Shown: piece by piece, positions 4,752 through 17,689 of the stretch
Numbering within the stretch: position 1 is the first letter of the stretch
How the letters are laid out: every line of letters starts with the position of its first letter
Source of the DNA: a virus
Reading direction: 5' to 3' (one strand)
DNA: 24,038 nt
IMG/VR virus record: IMGVR_UViG_3300046007_013113
Coordinates: 1 to 24,038 of that record
The notes under the pieces: model-generated
What the model saw: only the letters and a program-made list of their open reading frames with translations
The model's database searches: none
What the model was told of the DNA's origin: nothing
Made by a program: the position numbers and the translations under genes

Positions 4752-5240
4752 ATGGCAGTATTATCACCAAACGAAATATTTTTTACAGCATTTGAACCAA
4801 AGGTAGCCAACAGGTTTATTATGTATGTAGATGGAATCCCTTCATACACTATTAAGCAAATTGCTGCTGTATCTGTAGATATGGGAGAAATTGTATTAAA
4901 CCACATTAATGTTTACCGTAAAATTAAAGGTAAAGCTAAATGGGGAGATATGCAAATGACATTATTTGATCCAATCACTCCATCTGGTGCTCAAGCAGTA
5001 ATGGAATGGGTGCGTTTACATCATGAATCTGTAACTGGTCGTGATGGTTATTCTGATTTTTATAAGAAAGATATAACTGTTAACGTGTTAGGTCCTGTTG
5101 GTGATGTTGTTTCTGAATGGATTATCAAAGGTGCATTTATTAAATCTGCAAACTTTGGTGAATACAATTGGGATACTGAAGCAGCAGCTATAAACCTTCA
5201 AGTTACTTTAGGAATGGATTACTGTATCTTAAATTACTAA
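4752..5240 (+). CDS. gp19: Tail tube protein (gp19 family)
   Basis: A 162-residue protein, practically the length of T4 gp19 (163 aa). The sequence follows the family pattern: ANRFIMYVDGIPSYTIK near residues 19-35, a beta strand with NVYRKIKGKAKWGDMQMTLFDPI (about 53-75), then a helix (AQAVMEWVRLHHES) and terminal strands ending in NLQVTLGMDYCILNY. Hexamers of it stack into the inner tube through which DNA passes. The start is supported by the upstream A-rich leader (AAATATAAAATGGC). The gene has no close neighbour: a terminator plus promoter-like box lies on each side, giving a single-gene unit suited to high expression. Family identity is secure. Confidence 0.95.
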   Translation: MAVLSPNEIFFTAFEPKVANRFIMYVDGIPSYTIKQIAAVSVDMGEIVLNHINVYRKIKGKAKWGDMQMTLFDPITPSGAQAVMEWVRLHHESVTGRDGYSDFYKKDITVNVLGPVGDVVSEWIIKGAFIKSANFGEYNWDTEAAAINLQVTLGMDYCILNY

Positions 5241-5335: not shown

Positions 5336-6097
5336 ATGGAACAAGTTACAAACACAACTCAAGAAACACCCAAATTTAATTTCCTAACAGAAACAATTGA
5401 ATTACCTTCAAAAGGTTTACTTTATCCTAAAGATAATCTTCTTTCAAAAGGAATAATTGAAATAAGATACATGACAGCAGCTCATGAAGATATTTTAACT
5501 AACCAAACATATATTCAAAAAGGAAATGTACTTGATAAATTAATGCAAGCGTTAATTGTAACTCCTATTAATTATGATGATTTAATTGTTGGTGATAAGA
5601 ATGCAATTATGATTGCTTCTCGTATTTTAGGTTATGGTAAAAATTACAGTTTTACTTACAATGGACAAGAAGAAACAATTGATTTAAGTAATATTGATAA
5701 TAAACCATTTGATACTTCATTAATTACTCCAAACACAAATGAATTTTCATTCACATTACCTAATACAAAAGCAGTTGTTACTTTTAAAATATTAACTCAT
5801 TCAGATGAGAAAAAAATAGATGCTGAATTAGAAGGTCTTAAAAAAATTAAAAAAGACTCATCTCCTGAATTATCAACTCGTTTAAAATATATTATCACTT
5901 CAGTAAATGGAGATTCAACAGTCAAAACAATTCGAGATTTTGTTGATAATCAACTCTTAGCTATGGATTCTCGAGCATTAAGAGAATATATTAAAAAAGT
6001 TCAACCAGATGTTGACCTAACTTTTTTTCCCGATGGGAATGAAAAAGCCGTCAACATTCCAATTGGACTTAACTTTTTTTGGCCTGACGCAGGGTAA
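5336..6097 (+). CDS. gp26-like baseplate/tail-assembly protein (upstream frame)
   Basis: A 253-residue product. The block ELPSKGLLYP (about residues 22-31), the stretch RYMTAAHEDILTNQ (about 44-57) and YDDLIVGDKNAIMIASRILGYG (about 80-101) are characteristic of the T4 gp26 baseplate family as I know it. It ends with the sequence LNFFWPDAG. In T4, gp26 is a baseplate-hub assembly factor; here the gene sits between tail tube and tape measure, the usual place of tail-assembly chaperones. The next gene overlaps it by 65 nt in another frame and looks like its natural C-terminal continuation. The short protein may therefore be the unshifted form of a pair made by recoding. A T7 run at 6074-6080 near its end is the candidate shift site. 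A homopolymer assembly error is the alternative. Confidence 0.8.
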   Translation: MEQVTNTTQETPKFNFLTETIELPSKGLLYPKDNLLSKGIIEIRYMTAAHEDILTNQTYIQKGNVLDKLMQALIVTPINYDDLIVGDKNAIMIASRILGYGKNYSFTYNGQEETIDLSNIDNKPFDTSLITPNTNEFSFTLPNTKAVVTFKILTHSDEKKIDAELEGLKKIKKDSSPELSTRLKYIITSVNGDSTVKTIRDFVDNQLLAMDSRALREYIKKVQPDVDLTFFPDGNEKAVNIPIGLNFFWPDAG

Positions 6098-6413
6098 TGC
6101 TCCTGAATATAGACTTTATTTATTTAATCAAATTCATCAAATAGTATTTCATGGTAGGGGTGGATATGACTGGAATACAGTCTATAACATGCCTATTTGG
6201 TTAAGAAAATATACTTTCTCAGAAATTAAAAAGCATTATGATGAAGAAAAACAAGCACATGAAAATACTAATAGTGGTAAAAATGTAGCTATTGGTACAG
6301 ACGGATTAGTTAAAGATCGTAGTTTATTTCAAAATCAACAACAAACTCCACAAAAACAACCTGTTATTTCTAAACCTGGTATATCACCTAGAAAATCAGT
6401 TAGCTACAAGTAA
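6033..6413 (+). CDS. C-terminal extension of the gp26-like protein (shifted frame)
   Basis: The open frame runs from 6021 (after TAA at 6018) to the stop at 6411. The first ATG is at 6033, giving 126 residues, but its first 20 residues merely mirror the overlapping gene in another frame. Protein-like sequence begins after the overlap: PEYRLYLFNQIHQIVFHG, then NTVYNMPIWLRKYTFSEIK, and a polar Gln/Lys-rich tail. The MP..LR.(F/Y) helix reminds me of the C-terminal part of gp26/gp51-type proteins. A +1 shift at TTT TTT TGG (6074-6082) would join both frames into a product of about 358 aa. Independent initiation at 6033 is possible but less attractive. Function is tail or baseplate assembly, by context. 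Confidence 0.65.
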   Translation: MGMKKPSTFQLDLTFFGLTQGNAPEYRLYLFNQIHQIVFHGRGGYDWNTVYNMPIWLRKYTFSEIKKHYDEEKQAHENTNSGKNVAIGTDGLVKDRSLFQNQQQTPQKQPVISKPGISPRKSVSYK

Positions 6414-6453: not shown

Positions 6454-9213
6454 ATGGCTAGTAAAGAAGAGTTAGAAAATTTAAAAGAAATAGAGAAAAT
6501 AAAAGATCTTATTTTAAAATTAAATGCTAAAGATCAACAATATTATACTAATATTTTAAATAGTTTAGGTGCTTCTGTAAATTCATTAAATGATTTTAAA
6601 AAACTAACTCAGCAAATTGGAGATGATCTAGATGAAGTAAGAAATGATTTAGATTATATATATAAGTCGTTTAAGGATAGTGTTAATGAATTAAGTAAAC
6701 AAGATGTTTATTTAAACCTCCAAAAATCATCATTAAATAAATTAGGTAATATTGCTCGAGATACCCTAGATATAAGAAGAGGAGAAACATTATTTGAAGA
6801 AAAAAAATTTAAAAAACTTCAAGATCAAGCTAGAATAAATTTAGAAAACTTAGAACTTGTTAGAACTCATGGTAATCTTCAAGGTAAAGCTCAAAAAGCT
6901 CTTGAAGATCAAATTAAAACAGCTAAAGAACTTTTTAAAGCATTTAATGAAGTTTCAAAAGTTAATAAAGATACTATTGATAAATTAGGACTAACTCCTC
7001 AAATATTAGGAGGAATAGGGAAAACCTTATCTAAACTTGGACTCCCAGATTTAGGTTTTGAAGATGCACTAAATAAAACTAAAATGCTTGGTCAAGAAGC
7101 AGCATCTTTAGGAAAATCTTTTAACCCTCTAGCTACATATACTAAATTAGTAGCCCAAAATATTTCAGATCAATTTACCAAAGCAAATTTACTTCAATTT
7201 ACTCTACTCCAAATAGTAAACACATTTAAAGCTTTAGATACAGGTATAGGTGAGTTTGCTAAAGGTATGAATATATCATACCAAGATGCTGCTAAGCTTA
7301 ATAATGAATTTAATAACATTGCTAACTCATCTATGGATGTAGCTGTTACTACTAAAGGCATTAGAGAAACAATGTTAGCTATGGGGCAGGCAATGGGTAC
7401 TAATGCTACATTAAATGCTAAAGATGCTGTTACGATGACTAAACTTCGAGAACAAGCAGGATTTACTAATGATGAATTAGCAAAAATGCAAGAACTTACT
7501 TTAGCAACTGGTGGTAATTTAGAAGATAATACTAAAAATTTACTAGGAGCAGCAAGTATAACCGCTATGAATAATGGTGTGTTATTAAATGAAAAAGAAA
7601 TAATGCGTGATGTAGCTAAAGCTTCTGATGCTACTAAGTTATCTTTAGGTGGAAGTACTGAAGCATTAGGTAAAGCTGCTGCTCAATCTAAAGCATTAGG
7701 TATGTCTTTAGAACAGGTTAATAACATAGCAGATTCATTACTTCAAATTGAATCTTCAATTTCAAATGAATTAGAAGCAGAATTATTAACTGGTAAAAAT
7801 TTAAATTTAGAACAAGCCCGTCTATATGCATTAAATAATGATATGGAAGGGTTATCTAAAGAAATAGCTAAAAATTACGGAACTGCAGCTGAATTTTCTA
7901 AAATGAATAGACTTCAGCAAGAAGCTGCTGCTAAAGCAGTAGGTATGACTCGTGAAGAATTAGCAGGTACTTTAGTTAGAGCTGAAGCTTTAAAATCTAT
8001 GAGTGGTGAGCAAGCTGAAAAAGCAAAACAAGCTTTTGATACTAGGGTTAAAGAAGTTGGTTTAGAACAAGCTCAAAAAGAATTAAAAGAAGGTCAACTC
8101 CAAAAAATGATGGAGCAACAATCAATACAAGAAAGATTTAATCAATCTATTGAAAAACTAAAAGAAGTATTTGTTTCGTTATTAGCACCATTAATGCCAG
8201 TTTTAGATATTTTTGCAATGATTCTAAAACCAATTGGAGCAATAGCCGGAGTTATAGGACAAATAGTAAAATTTACAATAGATTGGGGTAAGTATTTATT
8301 AATAGCTATTGGAGCTTATAAAACTCTTCAATTCTTTGGAGATATTGAATATAGAAGAACTATTTTAACTAATGCAGCTAAAAAAGTAGGATTAATAACT
8401 GATAAACAAGCTGCTGTTCAAGCTAAAATTACAGATATGCTTGGTAAAGATTATATTTCTAATGAAACTAAAAAGAACTTAATTAAAGAAAAAGGACTTT
8501 TTACTACTATCTCAGAAAATATACAAAAAAGATTAGGTTTAACTTTAGATAAAGAATCTTTATTAGGAAAAATAAAAAGCAGTGCTATTGCTGCTAAAGA
8601 CTTTGTACTTGAAAAAAGCTCATTAGCTTTTAAATATACTAGAAATATATTAGAAGCAGGATATAATGCTATAAAAAAAATAGGTTCGGCAATAGCTAAA
8701 AGTGAATTAATGTTAAATATAGGTAAAGCAGCTATGGGTGCTATTTCTTCTTTATCTTCAATCCCTATAGTGGGTTGGGCACTAGGTTTAGCAGCAGCAG
8801 GTACTATAGCAGCTTTAGGATATAAATATATGAAAGGTGATGACATGATCTCCCCAGGCTATGGTAAACGTACATTAATGGGTCCTGAAGGAGCAATAGC
8901 ATTAAACAATAAAGATACAGTAATAGCAGGTACAAATTTATTTGATAAAAAAGGAGATGATGTAGTATCTGAACCTGAAAAAATTACTGAATTTAAATCT
9001 GAAGGAGCAATTAGTGCTACTAGTGGTGGGATACAAATCGATTATAATGCTTTAGCATCAGCTGTAGTAAGTGCTCTTAAAAATGCTCCTATGACAGTAA
9101 ATAGCACACTTATGTTAGATAAAGATGTATTAGCAAAACAAACAGTACAAGCAGTAAGTGATAATGCTACTAAAGTAGGTACAGCAGCTGCTGTAGGTAC
9201 TTCTAAAATATAA
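6454..9213 (+). CDS. Tail tape measure protein
   Basis: At 919 residues this is the second largest protein of the tail block. The long helical N-terminal two thirds are rich in Lys, Glu, Leu and Ala (for example residues 1-100 and 105-190, coiled-coil-like). Two hydrophobic regions follow, about 571-628 (LLAPLMPVLDIFAMILKPIG and beyond) and about 760-792 (SSIPIVGWALGLAAAG). A Gly/Ser-rich C-terminus ends the protein. This architecture and the position after tube and chaperone-like genes are diagnostic of tape measure proteins, which fix tail length and leave the tube first on injection, where hydrophobic parts may contact the host inner membrane. T4 gp29 is 590 aa, so a longer tail is plausible. 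No peptidase or lysozyme motif is seen inside it. Confidence 0.88.
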   Translation: MASKEELENLKEIEKIKDLILKLNAKDQQYYTNILNSLGASVNSLNDFKKLTQQIGDDLDEVRNDLDYIYKSFKDSVNELSKQDVYLNLQKSSLNKLGNIARDTLDIRRGETLFEEKKFKKLQDQARINLENLELVRTHGNLQGKAQKALEDQIKTAKELFKAFNEVSKVNKDTIDKLGLTPQILGGIGKTLSKLGLPDLGFEDALNKTKMLGQEAASLGKSFNPLATYTKLVAQNISDQFTKANLLQFTLLQIVNTFKALDTGIGEFAKGMNISYQDAAKLNNEFNNIANSSMDVAVTTKGIRETMLAMGQAMGTNATLNAKDAVTMTKLREQAGFTNDELAKMQELTLATGGNLEDNTKNLLGAASITAMNNGVLLNEKEIMRDVAKASDATKLSLGGSTEALGKAAAQSKALGMSLEQVNNIADSLLQIESSISNELEAELLTGKNLNLEQARLYALNNDMEGLSKEIAKNYGTAAEFSKMNRLQQEAAAKAVGMTREELAGTLVRAEALKSMSGEQAEKAKQAFDTRVKEVGLEQAQKELKEGQLQKMMEQQSIQERFNQSIEKLKEVFVSLLAPLMPVLDIFAMILKPIGAIAGVIGQIVKFTIDWGKYLLIAIGAYKTLQFFGDIEYRRTILTNAAKKVGLITDKQAAVQAKITDMLGKDYISNETKKNLIKEKGLFTTISENIQKRLGLTLDKESLLGKIKSSAIAAKDFVLEKSSLAFKYTRNILEAGYNAIKKIGSAIAKSELMLNIGKAAMGAISSLSSIPIVGWALGLAAAGTIAALGYKYMKGDDMISPGYGKRTLMGPEGAIALNNKDTVIAGTNLFDKKGDDVVSEPEKITEFKSEGAISATSGGIQIDYNALASAVVSALKNAPMTVNSTLMLDKDVLAKQTVQAVSDNATKVGTAAAVGTSKI

Positions 9214-12037: not shown

Positions 12038-15000
12038 ATGAAAAGCATAGTAGGAGAACCATTTGATGAATTTGTAACAAAACAAATCATAAATAGACAA
12101 AACATTCATGGACAAGGTTTTGATGTCTATAGAGATAATAACACTCTTGCATATTTAAATTCTAGAACTAGTTGGATAAAATTATCTTCAGGAGTAGCTA
12201 TTAATAAAGTAGAAAGACTAGACAGAATAGGTCTTCAAGGACACCCTTCATTTATAGGACCAAATGGTACTAGTACTGGTCTATCTAACTTTTTTGTTCT
12301 ATTCAATGGTACTTCTGACAATGCTGGAACTCCATATGGTGGAATAGATATTATTAGTAATCAACCCAATCAAGATATGGGGCAAAGTATTTTGAATAAA
12401 GTAGCATACGGAATTGGAGGAACAGAATTTGGTTTAAGACCAATGCCTGGTATTACTTCTTGTGACACTAAATTTAGAAATAGAGGTTCAATTAGAGAAG
12501 GTACTGTTACTATAAAAGCATACAACCGTTCTCAACTAGAAATTATTAGTTTACTTTATTTACGCTTAGGATTTCCAGTATTATTAGAATGGGGACACTC
12601 AATAATTGTTGATAAAGAAGGAAAAGTAGATACAAAACCAGATTTTAGTATATCTAAAAATTTTTTAGGATTAGAGTATAAAACTGATAATGATGTTTTA
12701 AAAGCATTAGAAACCCAAAGAGAATCATCAGCCGGAAATTATGATGGAATGTATGGTCGTGTTCAAAATTTTGATTGGACATTTAATAAAGATGGCTCTT
12801 ATGACATTACATTAAAATTAATTAGTATAGGAGCGTTAGTTGAATCTTTTAAAGTAAATTCATATTTAGAAGATTTAAACAAAAAAGATGACTCTAAAAA
12901 CGATGACTCTACCCCAGAATCTGATGATGATTGGATTATGAAATATAAATATGCTCATACTATAGGTAATATTTTTTTCTTAGCTAAAAGTAAATTAAAA
13001 GGAGGAAATTTAGCTTCATTAAATAGAACACAAATTGAAGAGTTAAATTTTATGCAACAAATATTAAATGATACTTCAACATACAACTTGGCAGTAGCTA
13101 CTCTAGGTATATCTTTAATAGCCGAATCAATAAATAATTTTTTTAATCCTAGTAAAGCTCCAGAAGGAACAGATAAAGATTATATAAAAATAGCAAGTGA
13201 AGGCCCAGATTTATATTATATTAGATTTGGAGAATTATTAAATTTACTTCAAGGTATTCTACCATATAATGTAACTGATCCAAATAAATATGCTTCATTG
13301 TTGACTATAAAAATTCTTGATGAAAATAAAAAGGAAATTCCTATTCCTATGTATACTGAAAAGTATCAACTTTCTGGGGATTTAAGAGTTTCATTTGTTG
13401 GTGGTTATGACATAGGGATGTTACATCTTATTAAAGAATTAGACAGTAATCCTTATAGAAAAACACAAAATGGAGTTTTAATAGGAAATTTAAATAATGT
13501 TTATGTTAATATGGCTTTTATTCTTTCTAAATTAGTAGATTTAAAAGACGAAGATGGTAAAGTAACACTTATTGATCTTTTAAAAAGCATATTAGAAGGA
13601 ATAAATACATCTTTGGGTAGCATTAATAAACTAGATGTTATGATAGATGAAACCAATAACACAGTTAGATTTTATGATGAAACTCCAATTCCAGAAATAG
13701 AAAAAATTACTAACTTAGAAAATATAGAATCTCCAAAATTTGATTTATACGGATACAGCAACAATAAAACATCAGCAGGATTTATTAAAGATTTTTCTTT
13801 AAAAACAGAAATAACTAACAATTTAGCAGCTATGGTAACTATAGGTGCAACGGCTAAGGGTCAAGTAGTTGGTGAAGATGCTACTGCATTTTCTAGATGG
13901 AATGATGGATTAAGCCCTATAATTAATGAAGCTATAGATTACGTTAGTAGTAAGAAAGAACCTAATCCAACTTTGCAAAAACAAAGGGAAGATTTAGTAA
14001 TTGCAAATGTTCAATTAAAAAAACAATTTGTTGAATATATTATTTTAAGATATAATGATTATGATGTTGATGTGGAAGAAGCTGATACTACTCTTCAAGT
14101 AGTTACTAATTATTTAGCATTTGAAAACCAATATAAAATTCTTCGTCAAAAATATATAGCAGAAGTAGCTGGTCAAATTAACCCTACTTTTGTATCTGCT
14201 ACTAGTAGCAGAGGATTTCTTCCTATTAATTTATCTTTAACAATGGATGGACTTTCAGGTATAAAAATTTATCAACAAATAAAAGTTGATACTGCTTATT
14301 TACCAACTGAATATCCAACTGCTTTAAAATTTATTATAAAGGGAGTATCTAATAAAATAGATTCTTCTGGATGGACTACATCTATAGAAACAGTTTCAAT
14401 GCCTGTAATTGATTTTGTAAATGGAGGAGAAAATTCTCCAACAGGTAGTGGAACTGGTAATTCTAATACTATAAATTTACCTCCTTCTCCAGCAAATAGA
14501 GAAGAATCTAGAAATATTGTTGTTGGGCAAAATCCCCCACCTCTTACTCATGTTAATGATCCAAATCTTTCTCAAATAAGAAATGCTATAGTAAGAATAG
14601 CTAAAGGATATGTAGGTCAATCTGAAATTCCTGAAAGAATTGTAAATGGGAAAAATATTAATGATAATTTAGGATTTAATGATAAATCATTTGAAGCAAA
14701 AATGAAAGGTGTAGGTTGGTATAGTTCTAATAATGCTTTATGGTGTAATTGGTTTGCAGATTTAGTATGGAAAGAAGCATATACTCAAGTAGGAGCTACT
14801 GATAAAAATATTCAAAATATTTTTGCAACTAAACTTAACTCTAAAGTTTTACCTCCATTAAGTGCTGGAGTATTTAATACCCTAAACTCAGCTATAAAAG
14901 CAGGATTTGGAAAAAACTCCCCACAACTTTCAGATATTAAACCTGGAGATATGATTATATATAATTATGGCCACGTAAATATATGTGTTGCCGTTAACCA

Positions 15001-15139
15001 GCAAGATGGAAGTATTTCTACAGTAGGAGGAAATGAAGGTGGAGGAGCTAAATCTAGAAATGGTGGAAGAGTAGTATACACAGCTAAAAGAAATTTTAAA
15101 TCAGCAGATATAAAAGGAATTGTTAAAGTAATAGAATAA
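12038..15139 (+). CDS. Baseplate hub protein with C-terminal CHAP peptidoglycan hydrolase
   Basis: The 1033-residue protein is the largest in the window. Residues 1-790 are a structural region, with an acidic low-complexity insertion at about 282-296 (KKDDSKNDDSTPESDDD). A Gly/Ser/Asn/Pro linker spans about 795-838. Residues about 845-1033 form a CHAP (NlpC/P60-like) domain: catalytic Cys903 in LWCNWFADLVW, His979 in YGHVNICV, and Asn999 in TVGGNEGG as probable third residue. CHAP enzymes are peptidoglycan amidases or endopeptidases. Attached to the hub, it would locally open the cell wall during injection, the job done by the lysozyme domain of T4 gp5. There is no signal peptide. It overlaps the next gene by one base (TAATG). 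The CHAP call is strong; the hub role follows from gene order and size. Confidence 0.87.
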   Translation: MKSIVGEPFDEFVTKQIINRQNIHGQGFDVYRDNNTLAYLNSRTSWIKLSSGVAINKVERLDRIGLQGHPSFIGPNGTSTGLSNFFVLFNGTSDNAGTPYGGIDIISNQPNQDMGQSILNKVAYGIGGTEFGLRPMPGITSCDTKFRNRGSIREGTVTIKAYNRSQLEIISLLYLRLGFPVLLEWGHSIIVDKEGKVDTKPDFSISKNFLGLEYKTDNDVLKALETQRESSAGNYDGMYGRVQNFDWTFNKDGSYDITLKLISIGALVESFKVNSYLEDLNKKDDSKNDDSTPESDDDWIMKYKYAHTIGNIFFLAKSKLKGGNLASLNRTQIEELNFMQQILNDTSTYNLAVATLGISLIAESINNFFNPSKAPEGTDKDYIKIASEGPDLYYIRFGELLNLLQGILPYNVTDPNKYASLLTIKILDENKKEIPIPMYTEKYQLSGDLRVSFVGGYDIGMLHLIKELDSNPYRKTQNGVLIGNLNNVYVNMAFILSKLVDLKDEDGKVTLIDLLKSILEGINTSLGSINKLDVMIDETNNTVRFYDETPIPEIEKITNLENIESPKFDLYGYSNNKTSAGFIKDFSLKTEITNNLAAMVTIGATAKGQVVGEDATAFSRWNDGLSPIINEAIDYVSSKKEPNPTLQKQREDLVIANVQLKKQFVEYIILRYNDYDVDVEEADTTLQVVTNYLAFENQYKILRQKYIAEVAGQINPTFVSATSSRGFLPINLSLTMDGLSGIKIYQQIKVDTAYLPTEYPTALKFIIKGVSNKIDSSGWTTSIETVSMPVIDFVNGGENSPTGSGTGNSNTINLPPSPANREESRNIVVGQNPPPLTHVNDPNLSQIRNAIVRIAKGYVGQSEIPERIVNGKNINDNLGFNDKSFEAKMKGVGWYSSNNALWCNWFADLVWKEAYTQVGATDKNIQNIFATKLNSKVLPPLSAGVFNTLNSAIKAGFGKNSPQLSDIKPGDMIIYNYGHVNICVAVNQQDGSISTVGGNEGGGAKSRNGGRVVYTAKRNFKSADIKGIVKVIE

Positions 15140-15744: not shown

Positions 15745-15797
15745 TTTACATATATTAAGTATGTTAATTAAAAGGTTATGTTTTACATTTTTATTAC

Positions 15798-15811
15798 ATA
15801 TTTATATGTAT
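15798..15811 (+). promoter_or_regulatory. Promoter-like box directly before the HNH gene
   Basis: ATATTTATATGTAT abuts the chosen HNH ATG at 15812 and shares its first ten-base pattern (ATATTTATA) with the other boxes. Initiation from here would give a nearly leaderless transcript or an internal start, so a functional role is uncertain. Confidence 0.25.
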
Positions 15812-16372
15812 ATGAAAACATGTAACCAATGTGATATAAAAAAATACTTAGACGCTTTTAACAAAAGTAAATCAACTAAAGATAAATTACAATATAAATG
15901 TAAAGATTGTGAAAAAATAAATAACAAAATTGCAAGACAAAAAAATCCTACTTCAAAATATTATAATCAAAATAAACAATATTATAAAGATTATAGTAAA
16001 GAATGGATTGAAAATAATGAAAGTAGATGGAAAGAATATTATAAAGTATGGCAAAAATCTTATCAACAAAATAAGTACAATACCGATCCTATTTATAAAT
16101 TAAGAATGTGTGTTGGGACAAGAATAAGAATGGCATTAAAATCACAAGGTAAAAATAAATTAGGAAAAACAATAGAATATTTAGGTTGTGATTATGATTA
16201 CCTTAAACAACATCTTGAAAATCAATTTATTGAAGGTATGACTTGGGATAATTATGGAGAGTGGGAAATAGATCATATTATTCCCATATCTAAAAATGGA
16301 AGTTTTCATTATACTAATCTACAACCATTATGGTGGAAAGATAATTTAAAAAAATCCAATAGTGTTTTGTAA
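15812..16372 (+). CDS. HNH homing-type endonuclease
   Basis: A free-standing endonuclease of 186 residues when started at 15812. The frame extends to an ATG at 15761, but those 17 residues (MLIKRLCFTFLLHIYMY) are unlike the family, which usually begins with the zinc-binding Met-Lys-x-Cys segment. Residues 4, 7, 30 and 33 form a C-x2-C...C-x2-C zinc ribbon. A Lys/Tyr/Asn-rich helical linker follows. The HNH core is EIDHIIPIS (Asp154, His155), His166, NLQPLWW (from Asn169) and Asn178. It cuts dsDNA and probably spreads its own gene. It sits alone between the baseplate operon and the DNA polymerase gene, which fits later insertion at a module border. Its cutting site is unknown. Confidence 0.88.
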   Translation: MKTCNQCDIKKYLDAFNKSKSTKDKLQYKCKDCEKINNKIARQKNPTSKYYNQNKQYYKDYSKEWIENNESRWKEYYKVWQKSYQQNKYNTDPIYKLRMCVGTRIRMALKSQGKNKLGKTIEYLGCDYDYLKQHLENQFIEGMTWDNYGEWEIDHIIPISKNGSFHYTNLQPLWWKDNLKKSNSVL

Positions 16373-16405: not shown

Positions 16406-17689
16406 ATGGCATTTTATATTATTGAAAATGATGAGCAACTAAATGAATTATTTAAAACAGGTTATGATAAAGTATTTATTGAACCTGTATACTACAATGA
16501 TAATGTTCATTCTGCTTTAAATCGCATATCTTTATTGTATATCAAACCATTAAACGGCGATAAAGGCTATATTATATGTGTTAATCACAATGAAGCGCTT
16601 TCGTTGAATAAAACCGTTATAAACGGTTTATTTGCATCTTTTAACGAAATATATGTTAGGGATAGGAAATCATTTATATATCATTTTCCATTAAAAAATA
16701 CTATAGATATTTCATTCAATACACCTGAATGTGTAGAACCATCTACTTCAACACATGATTTTTTCTATCAAAAACACAATGATAAATTAAATATAAACAC
16801 TATCATTCCATTAGTTAAGCACTATGAAAAATGCGAAATGATATTTAATAAAATAAGAGACAACTGTATTAAATTTGATAATGTAAAATTCTATAATAAA
16901 TTAATCAATGTGTTTTTTGCTATTGAAAGAAATGGAATTAAATTAAACGAAAAAACATTCAATAAATACTATGAATTACCTAACGATAAATTTTCTATAC
17001 AAGATGGTACAATATATACTAAATATAACTTATACACAACAACAGGAAGACCATCCAATAGTTTTAATGGGATTAATTTCGCTGCTTTAGCAAAAGATAA
17101 TGGTTGTAGATCATCATTTATACCTGAAAATGATTGTTTCATTGAAATAGATATTAGTGCTTATCATCCAACACTAGCTGCTCAATTAATTGATTATGAT
17201 TTTGGAGATGAAACACCTTATCAATACTTTGCTCGTGAAGCAGGAATTGATATAAATGAAGCTAAAATATTAATGTTTAAACAATTATATGGTGGAGTTT
17301 ATAAAGAATATCAATATATAGAATATCTACAATTAATACAAGAATATGTAAAAGATTTATGGAATACATATACTTCTATAGGATTCGTAAAATGCCCAAT
17401 CTCAGGACATATATTTAAAGATTTAAAGGATATAAATCCTCAAAAGCTTTTTAATTATACTCTTCAAAACTTGGAAACCTCAAATAATGTTCTTATATTA
17501 TGGGATATTATAAAACTATTAAAAGGAAAATCAACAAAAATTGTACTTTATACTTACGATTCTATCCTATTAGATTATAAAAAAGAAGACAATGTATTAG
17601 AAGACATAAAAGATACATTTAAGAAACATAAATTAAAAATAAAAATAACAACAGGTAAAAACTACGGTGATATGGCACCTTTGCACTAA
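16406..17689 (+). CDS. Compact family A DNA polymerase
   Basis: The 427-residue protein carries the family A palm and fingers motifs. YTTTGRPS (Thr212 to Ser217) is the template-contact motif. FIEIDISAYHPTLAAQL is motif A with Asp249. KILMFKQLYGG (Lys287, Tyr295, Gly296) is the O-helix, motif B. LYTYDSILLD (Asp385) is motif C, with Tyr-Asp-Ser in place of the usual His-Asp-Glu. The first 150 residues look like a reduced exonuclease-like domain (VFIEPVYYNDNVHSALNRI), but I see no clean DxE exonuclease motif, so proofreading may be lost. It is much shorter than E. coli Pol I (928 aa) or T7 polymerase (704 aa). T4 itself uses a family B enzyme. The 155-aa gene follows after 2 nt. Polymerase identity is firm. 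Confidence 0.88.
   Translation: MAFYIIENDEQLNELFKTGYDKVFIEPVYYNDNVHSALNRISLLYIKPLNGDKGYIICVNHNEALSLNKTVINGLFASFNEIYVRDRKSFIYHFPLKNTIDISFNTPECVEPSTSTHDFFYQKHNDKLNINTIIPLVKHYEKCEMIFNKIRDNCIKFDNVKFYNKLINVFFAIERNGIKLNEKTFNKYYELPNDKFSIQDGTIYTKYNLYTTTGRPSNSFNGINFAALAKDNGCRSSFIPENDCFIEIDISAYHPTLAAQLIDYDFGDETPYQYFAREAGIDINEAKILMFKQLYGGVYKEYQYIEYLQLIQEYVKDLWNTYTSIGFVKCPISGHIFKDLKDINPQKLFNYTLQNLETSNNVLILWDIIKLLKGKSTKIVLYTYDSILLDYKKEDNVLEDIKDTFKKHKLKIKITTGKNYGDMAPLH

Follow-up and report, generated by a model that had tools for sequence, protein, structure and literature searches.

Does the gene that follows the tail tube gene of a phage specify one protein or, through a change of reading frame close to its end, two proteins that share a start? 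The question is raised by the virus record IMGVR_UViG_3300046007_013113, of which 24,038 bp were analysed (this whole stretch is called the window here). A first reading frame (ORF1) ends in the window at position 6097, and a second frame, which is +1 relative to ORF1, is open from 6021 to a stop codon at 6411-6413; the -1 frame closes only a few bases from where ORF1 stops. An earlier reading, made from the sequence alone, had placed the 253-aa frame up to 6097 and the second frame from 6021 to 6413, which is correct, and had proposed the pair as a split gp26-like gene that may be joined by a programmed frameshift. Here we report a comparative analysis of this locus, the features of which are listed in Table 1.

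Table 1. Features of the chaperone locus and its neighbours in the window.
Feature	Position	Strand	Remarks
Tail tube protein (gp19-like), upstream neighbour	4752..5240	+	PF06841 E 1e-4, phrog_4542 E 3e-20
ORF1, short chaperone form (TAC-N, T4 gp26-like)	5336..6097	+	253 aa, C-terminal end NFFWPDAG, then stop
Upstream tract ACTTTTTTTCCC (T7CCC)	6022..6031	+	52 nt upstream of the slip site; +1 frame open from here into the C domain
C before the Phe codons	6073	+	G or C in 97/99 representatives vs ~19 expected (codon usage)
Putative slip site TTT TTT TGG	6074..6082	+	tRNA-Phe on 6077-6079 can re-pair one base forward, on 6078-6080
C-terminal domain after +1 shift (TAC-C), GLTQGNAPEYRLYLFNQIHQ...VSYK	6081..6413	+	110 aa + stop; +1 in 165/169 loci
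Dual-coded stretch CCT GAC GCA GGG TAA	6083..6097	+	0 frame PDAG and stop, +1 frame LTQGN
Probable tape measure protein, downstream neighbour	6454..9213	+	919 aa; position, length, helical sequence

Sequences and methods

The locus sample consisted of 80 viral contigs, about 70 sequences from a profile search and 10 genome-bin contigs; scoring used profiles of the two gene parts. Among the 171 sequences, 169 were scorable, with near-identical contigs and the window itself counted in. The 99 representatives used for counts of single positions share less than 85% identity over 120 nt. Structure models were made for the ORF1 part and the part in the second frame (ORF2) separately. The phylogenetic tree has long branches between the large groups, which meet there, and nested placements alone were used.

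Identity of ORF1 and its neighbours

ORF1 of the window matches phrog_150 (E 3e-8), as do all 25 ORF1 homologues of alignment A1, 12 of which also match PF12322 (T4 baseplate; best 4e-15); the Pfam search with the window's own ORF1 and ORF2 recognised neither directly, including PF12322 for ORF1. In a comparison with hhalign, the ORF1 profile matched the profile of T4 gp26, gp51 and their relatives over the whole length (99.5%, E 4e-22), and the terminal Phe-Phe of ORF1 was aligned with that of gp26. With single T4 gp51 or gp26 sequences as targets, hhalign of the fused alignment A2 found nothing, so the family profile was needed for the ORF1 match. The AF2 model of ORF1 (pLDDT 91) had T4-like baseplate hub assembly proteins as its best matches in BFVD (E 7e-18 and 6e-17), and weak matches in the PDB to the chaperone YqbN (3klu; Z 5.5) and the HK97 chaperone (2ob9; Z 4.3 over 79 residues). 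Judged by its sequence profile, ORF1 is a homologue of T4 gp26 and a member of the gp26/TAC-N family (PF12322, phrog_150). Both gp26 and gp51 are termed hub assembly chaperones (PMC3004832).

The gene order in the window is sheath, tube, ORF1 and a long ORF, which was without a family match in the Pfam and phrog searches. An annotated tape measure gene occupies the equivalent place in Flavobacterium phage immuto (annotated order: tube, hub, tape measure), and the location of ORF1 between tail tube and tape measure also holds in phage isolates. The gp26 homology and the gene order in the window and in immuto bear out the earlier placement of a gp26-like gene between these two. Elsewhere in the window, a large hub-like protein (12038-15139) has a C-terminal CHAP domain slightly below the curated cut-off, and an HNH endonuclease gene (15761-16372), possibly encoding a homing endonuclease, lies between the structural and replication genes. 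The following 427-aa protein (16406-17689) looks by eye like a family A DNA polymerase, which is unusual for a T4-like phage, and is without a Pfam match.

The second reading frame

In 165 of the 169 scorable loci, the C-terminal domain is encoded by a +1 frame that overlaps the end of ORF1 and runs past its stop. It was found in the -1 frame or fused to ORF1 in none of the 169 (all scorable relatives in the clade have a closed -1 frame), and in the remaining four loci, which belong to one lineage, it stands apart, in the frame of ORF1 and with its own ATG. One and the same domain that occurs so regularly in the +1 frame and never in the -1 frame is not a chance open frame. The domain has the conserved motif FFGLT..QIHEIVFHG.GGYDW..VYNMP.WLR, and a median pairwise dN/dS of 0.41 (203 pairs) indicates purifying selection on the C-terminal region. 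The ORF2 profile matched the TAC-C regions of T4-like phages, the gp51 C-terminus among them, in a comparison with a small alignment assembled from translated frames (hhalign, 94%, E 1e-7); in this respect, ORF2 is similar to the C domain of gp51 and other T4-like chaperones. The ORF2 model is of medium confidence (pLDDT 74), and no fold match was found for it. Relatives of the locus were also present in contigs binned as Woesearchaeota, Alphaproteobacteria and Thaumarchaeota (L167, L168 and L169), which are probably misbinned phage contigs.

The C domain could also be a separate gene with its own start, reached by reinitiation or from a non-standard codon (CTG 6084-6086; ATG 6033 or 6039). 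The overlap of the window had been described as holding a single ATG (6033); it contains two (6033 and 6039) plus a TTG (6063), and another in-frame ATG, at 6189, lies within the conserved C domain. The two overlap ATGs favour a separate gene, as do the ATG directly after the overlap in cyanophage-type relatives and the two lineages with an own ATG that are described below, but the overlap ATGs are not conserved in the closest relatives. Most +1 relatives have no ATG, GTG or TTG in the +1 frame 5' of the ATG inside the conserved block YNMPxWLR, the window itself being an exception through its overlap ATGs; moreover, a +1-frame stop is found directly before the slip codons in some relatives and often 2-20 nt before them. 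The CTG is conserved, but this is forced by the two overlapping frames, and the codon is CTC in a split lineage. A separate start also leaves unexplained why all 99 representatives have TTT rather than TTC as their first Phe codon and why a G or C precedes it, and we consider it very unlikely.

The putative slip site

The T7 tract of the window (6074-6080) consists of two Phe codons, TTT 6074-6076 and TTT 6077-6079, and the T of TGG 6080-6082. A +1 slip on 6077-6079 would yield 248 + 110 = 358 aa, in agreement with the site at 6074-6082 and the product of about 358 aa that the sequence-only reading had proposed. The junction is near-invariant among the relatives and reads TTT YTT T(GG) CCT GAC. 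TTT YTT T is present in 147 of the 148 distinct non-split loci, in all of which the first Phe codon is TTT and the third codon begins with T. The second codon is mostly TTT, with CTT in 13 loci and CTA in one (LR756508, L083), which has TTT CTA TTC and a possible own ATG and breaks the slip-site rule. The third codon, that of the A site, is nearly always TGG, with TAC or TTC in a few loci. Conservation of the overlap and the T tract across relatives, or fused single ORFs in them, had been named as support for recoding; the former was found, the latter in none.

Selection acts on both frames at the junction. CCT was found in 98 of 99 representatives and GAC in 86 of 99 (compared with 16% of the Asp codons elsewhere in ORF1), and the third bases of these codons are fixed, since each doubles as the second base of a +1 codon (for Leu and Thr, respectively). 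The G or C before the Phe codons denies the site the -1 heptamer T_TTT_TTN.

The codon that slips can be assigned with the distant clade L181-L195, in which the site is TTC TTT TGG. A slip on the first Phe codon suits most members of the family but is ruled out by these relatives, since it would put the tRNA-Phe on TCT, and the slip is therefore assigned to the second codon. The one predicted rule that fits the members with TTT YTT T as well as those with TTC TTT TGG is a +1 slip in which the second codon moves from YTT_T to TTT. A -2 ribosomal slip in place of +1 would lead to the identical net frame with one extra residue at the junction; both re-pairings are possible in the T7 members, and in the CTT members tRNA-Leu(GAG) could re-pair on TTC. 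In the TTC TTT TGG members, however, it would put tRNA-Phe on TCT, with a mismatch at the middle position, and YTT_T agrees with the known +1 rule of RF2. The -2 slip is thus highly improbable, and the TTC TTT TGG relatives support the +1 shift, which the sequence-only reading had put before it.

The T-run itself suggests two further explanations. RNA polymerase could drop one U in the T7 run, so that some mRNAs encode the fusion in a single frame; such slippage, on long stretches of A or T, is an established way of recoding (PMC5009743), and T7 is present in most members. Alternatively, the homopolymer at the junction could reflect a sequencing or assembly error, or one gene could have been broken by a recent frame-breaking mutation. 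Neither transcript slippage nor sequencing error can explain the frame relation in members without a long T-run, and these include the 13 of 148 distinct loci with TTTCTTT and the clade L181-L195 with TTCTTTT, in which the frame relation is the same and 3-4 consecutive T do not suffice for slippage. The same arrangement recurs in considerably more than a hundred independent contigs and also in isolate genomes, whether or not the T-run is long; isolates with the equal +1 frame relation are Flavobacterium phage immuto, Microcystis phage Mel-JY01 and Rhodothermus phage RM378. The site of immuto reads AGC TTT CTT TGG CCT GAC. Transcriptional slippage is accordingly an extremely improbable source of the long form, and the probability of an error or a recent mutation is negligible. 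Assembly error, which had been raised as a refuting case, is ruled out by the isolates and by the TTTCTTT and TTCTTTT members.

Lineages with a separate C-terminal domain

Two lineages have split the gene. In L015-L018, the site reads TTC TTC TGG CCA GAT, and the C domain lies in the frame of ORF1, starting from its own ATG. In L191 and L196, the C domain also has its own ATG, in another frame than in L015-L018, and the sites are TTC TTG TAT and TTC CTT TGG CCA GAT. The slip site TTT_YTT_T is thus lost (TTC TTC TGG; TTC TTG TAT) or degraded (TTC CTT TGG) in the split lineages, and since both fall within the +1 clade at well-supported positions of the tree, they serve as natural controls. The C domain of L015-L018 still begins with FFGLT, the sequence that the shift would produce, and the retention of this sequence at the start of the domain marks the junction. 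The C domain of this lineage can be supplied as a separate protein, or perhaps by stop readthrough, which is conceivable because it lies in the ORF1 frame. The two lineages count against a chaperone pair made by frameshifting in that they show a C domain that can do without fusion to ORF1. Relatives with an own start had been named as grounds for refutation, and they do exist (L015-L018, L191 and L196); they are, however, nested in the +1 clade and have a lost or degraded slip site, and so do not refute the frameshift.

Sequence elements around the slip site

About half of the +1 representatives have a Shine-Dalgarno (SD)-like GGGGAGG or GAGGAGG between -36 and -22, counted from the first Phe codon, with 52% at or under -5 kcal/mol compared with 4.5% in the rest of ORF1. 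This element, which precedes the slip codon by about 28 nt, is weak in the window and recurs in the clade L181-L195. A weaker G-rich signal is found at -13 to -1 from the first Phe codon. Codons -11 to -9 are enriched in G at synonymous positions, even in loci whose +1 frame is closed upstream; the two strongest codons give p 2e-16 and 4e-21, values that are too small because the sequences are related. The upstream T7 tract occurs at equal spacing in 38 distinct loci of the window's clade, and the +1 frame is open between both tracts in 38 of 38 loci compared with 0.27 expected from codon resampling; it is possibly a second slip site specific to this clade. No strong downstream RNA structure that could act as a stimulator was found (mean z -0.1 to -1.3). 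The strongest signal, 45-105 nt downstream, is too far away for a classical stimulator, and upstream hairpins, which were inspected by eye, are not supported.

Direction of the predicted shift across the family

In cyanophage-type relatives, the C domain is in the -1 frame at T_TTT_TTC in 51 of 52 distinct loci. The inspected loci of this type (L205-L284) have an ATG at +5 in the -1 frame, and frameshift and own start may both serve there. The -1 frame likewise holds the domain in the jumbo-phage relatives LR756511 and L201-L203 and in Rhizobium phage IC12. In Rhodothermus phage RM378 the site is TTT TTT TGG and the frame +1; the frame is +1 too, with other sites, in Bacillus phage SP-15, Listeria phage LIS04 and Streptococcus phage GXN1. 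According to this family-wide survey, -1 is associated with a T before the Phe codons and +1 with a T after them.

These observations can be tentatively combined: the displacement of one flanking T may have reversed the direction (T_TTT_TTC for -1, [C/G]_TTT_YTT_T for +1), ribosomes may be held or queued by the synonymously selected SD-like element that precedes the slip codon by about 28 nt in roughly half of the +1 relatives, and the upstream T7 tract may be a second slip site. Taken as a whole, this combination is possible but rather doubtful.

Proposed mechanism

ORF1 and the +1 frame very probably constitute a tail assembly chaperone pair, made by a +1 frameshift at TTT 6077-6079. The direct basis of this assignment is the conservation of the frames and the slip site, the absence of start codons, the homology to gp26 and the naturally split controls; from these we infer that ribosomes shift at the site at some rate, that TGG acts as the pausing codon, and that the products have a role in tail assembly. 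The recoded chaperone pair that the sequence-only reading had suggested is supported in this form by the conserved +1 frame, the slip site, the gp26 homology and the split controls.

Most ribosomes would terminate at 6095-6097 and release the short form, TAC-N (253 aa). A fraction would slip forward by one base while the peptidyl-tRNA-Phe is on TTT 6077-6079 and the Trp codon TGG is in the A site; the tRNA would re-pair on TTT 6078-6080, the next codon would be GGC 6081-6083, and translation would continue to 6410 to give the 358-aa long form (TAC-NC). If they act like lambda gpG/gpGT, both forms would coat the tape measure protein and deliver tail tube subunits.

Comparison with known systems

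In T4, gp26 is homologous to ORF1, gp26 and gp51 both match PF12322, and the regions matched by the TAC-C profile include the C-terminus of gp51; unlike the arrangement in the window, genes 26 and 51 of T4 are separate, lie on opposite strands and involve no frameshift. Lambda gpG/gpGT is likewise a short and an extended chaperone made by recoding from one gene before the tape measure gene (PMC5009743), but lambda shifts by -1, and a sequence relation to the window protein is not detectable. The HK97 chaperone shows a weak fold resemblance to the ORF1 model (Z 4.3).

Among the +1 sites of RF2 (prfB), CUU_U is common and UUU_U minor (PMC5009743), and the slip rule CUU_U or UUU_U is the YTT_T of the present family. 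The A-site codon is a sense codon here (TGG, TAC or TTC) and a stop codon in RF2, and the SD sequence stands 3 nt before the slip codon in RF2, whereas the SD-like element is located about 28 nt upstream here, where present. Listeria phage PSA also uses +1 frameshifting in its structural module, but the shift occurs on CCC and concerns the tail shaft and capsid genes and not a chaperone (PMC5009743).

Chaperone pairs made by frameshift have already been proposed for T4-like phages, as -1 (Vladimirov, Gautam & Davidson 2022, Virology 566:9-15, as cited in PMC12846349 and PMC10885494), which makes the novelty of the locus smaller than the earlier reading implied; according to the same two sources, some T4-like phages have separate genes and others have poly-T -1 signals. 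As far as they describe the systems of Vladimirov et al. (2022), these and the present locus have in common the gp26/PF12322/phrog_150 family, the plan of TAC-N and TAC-NC, and a shift at Phe-Phe near the end of TAC-N with a poly-T slip site, and they differ in the +1 shift at TTT_YTT_T preceded by G or C that is found here. A literature search yielded no report of +1 in the T4-like gp26 chaperone family, which is weak evidence, since Vladimirov et al. (2022) may contain +1 cases. What is new here is the +1 direction, the switch of the flank between T_TTT_TTC (-1, cyanophages) and TTT_YTT_T (+1), and the SD-like element about 28 nt upstream.

The annotation of the locus is corrected by this analysis: in the isolate genomes examined, the C domain is absent, cut short or labelled hypothetical. 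Comparative evidence indicates that homologous tail chaperones reach one long form by -1 or +1 recoding at a shared Phe-Phe site, and because the bases that go with each direction are named, the evolution of frameshift direction is testable by few point changes.
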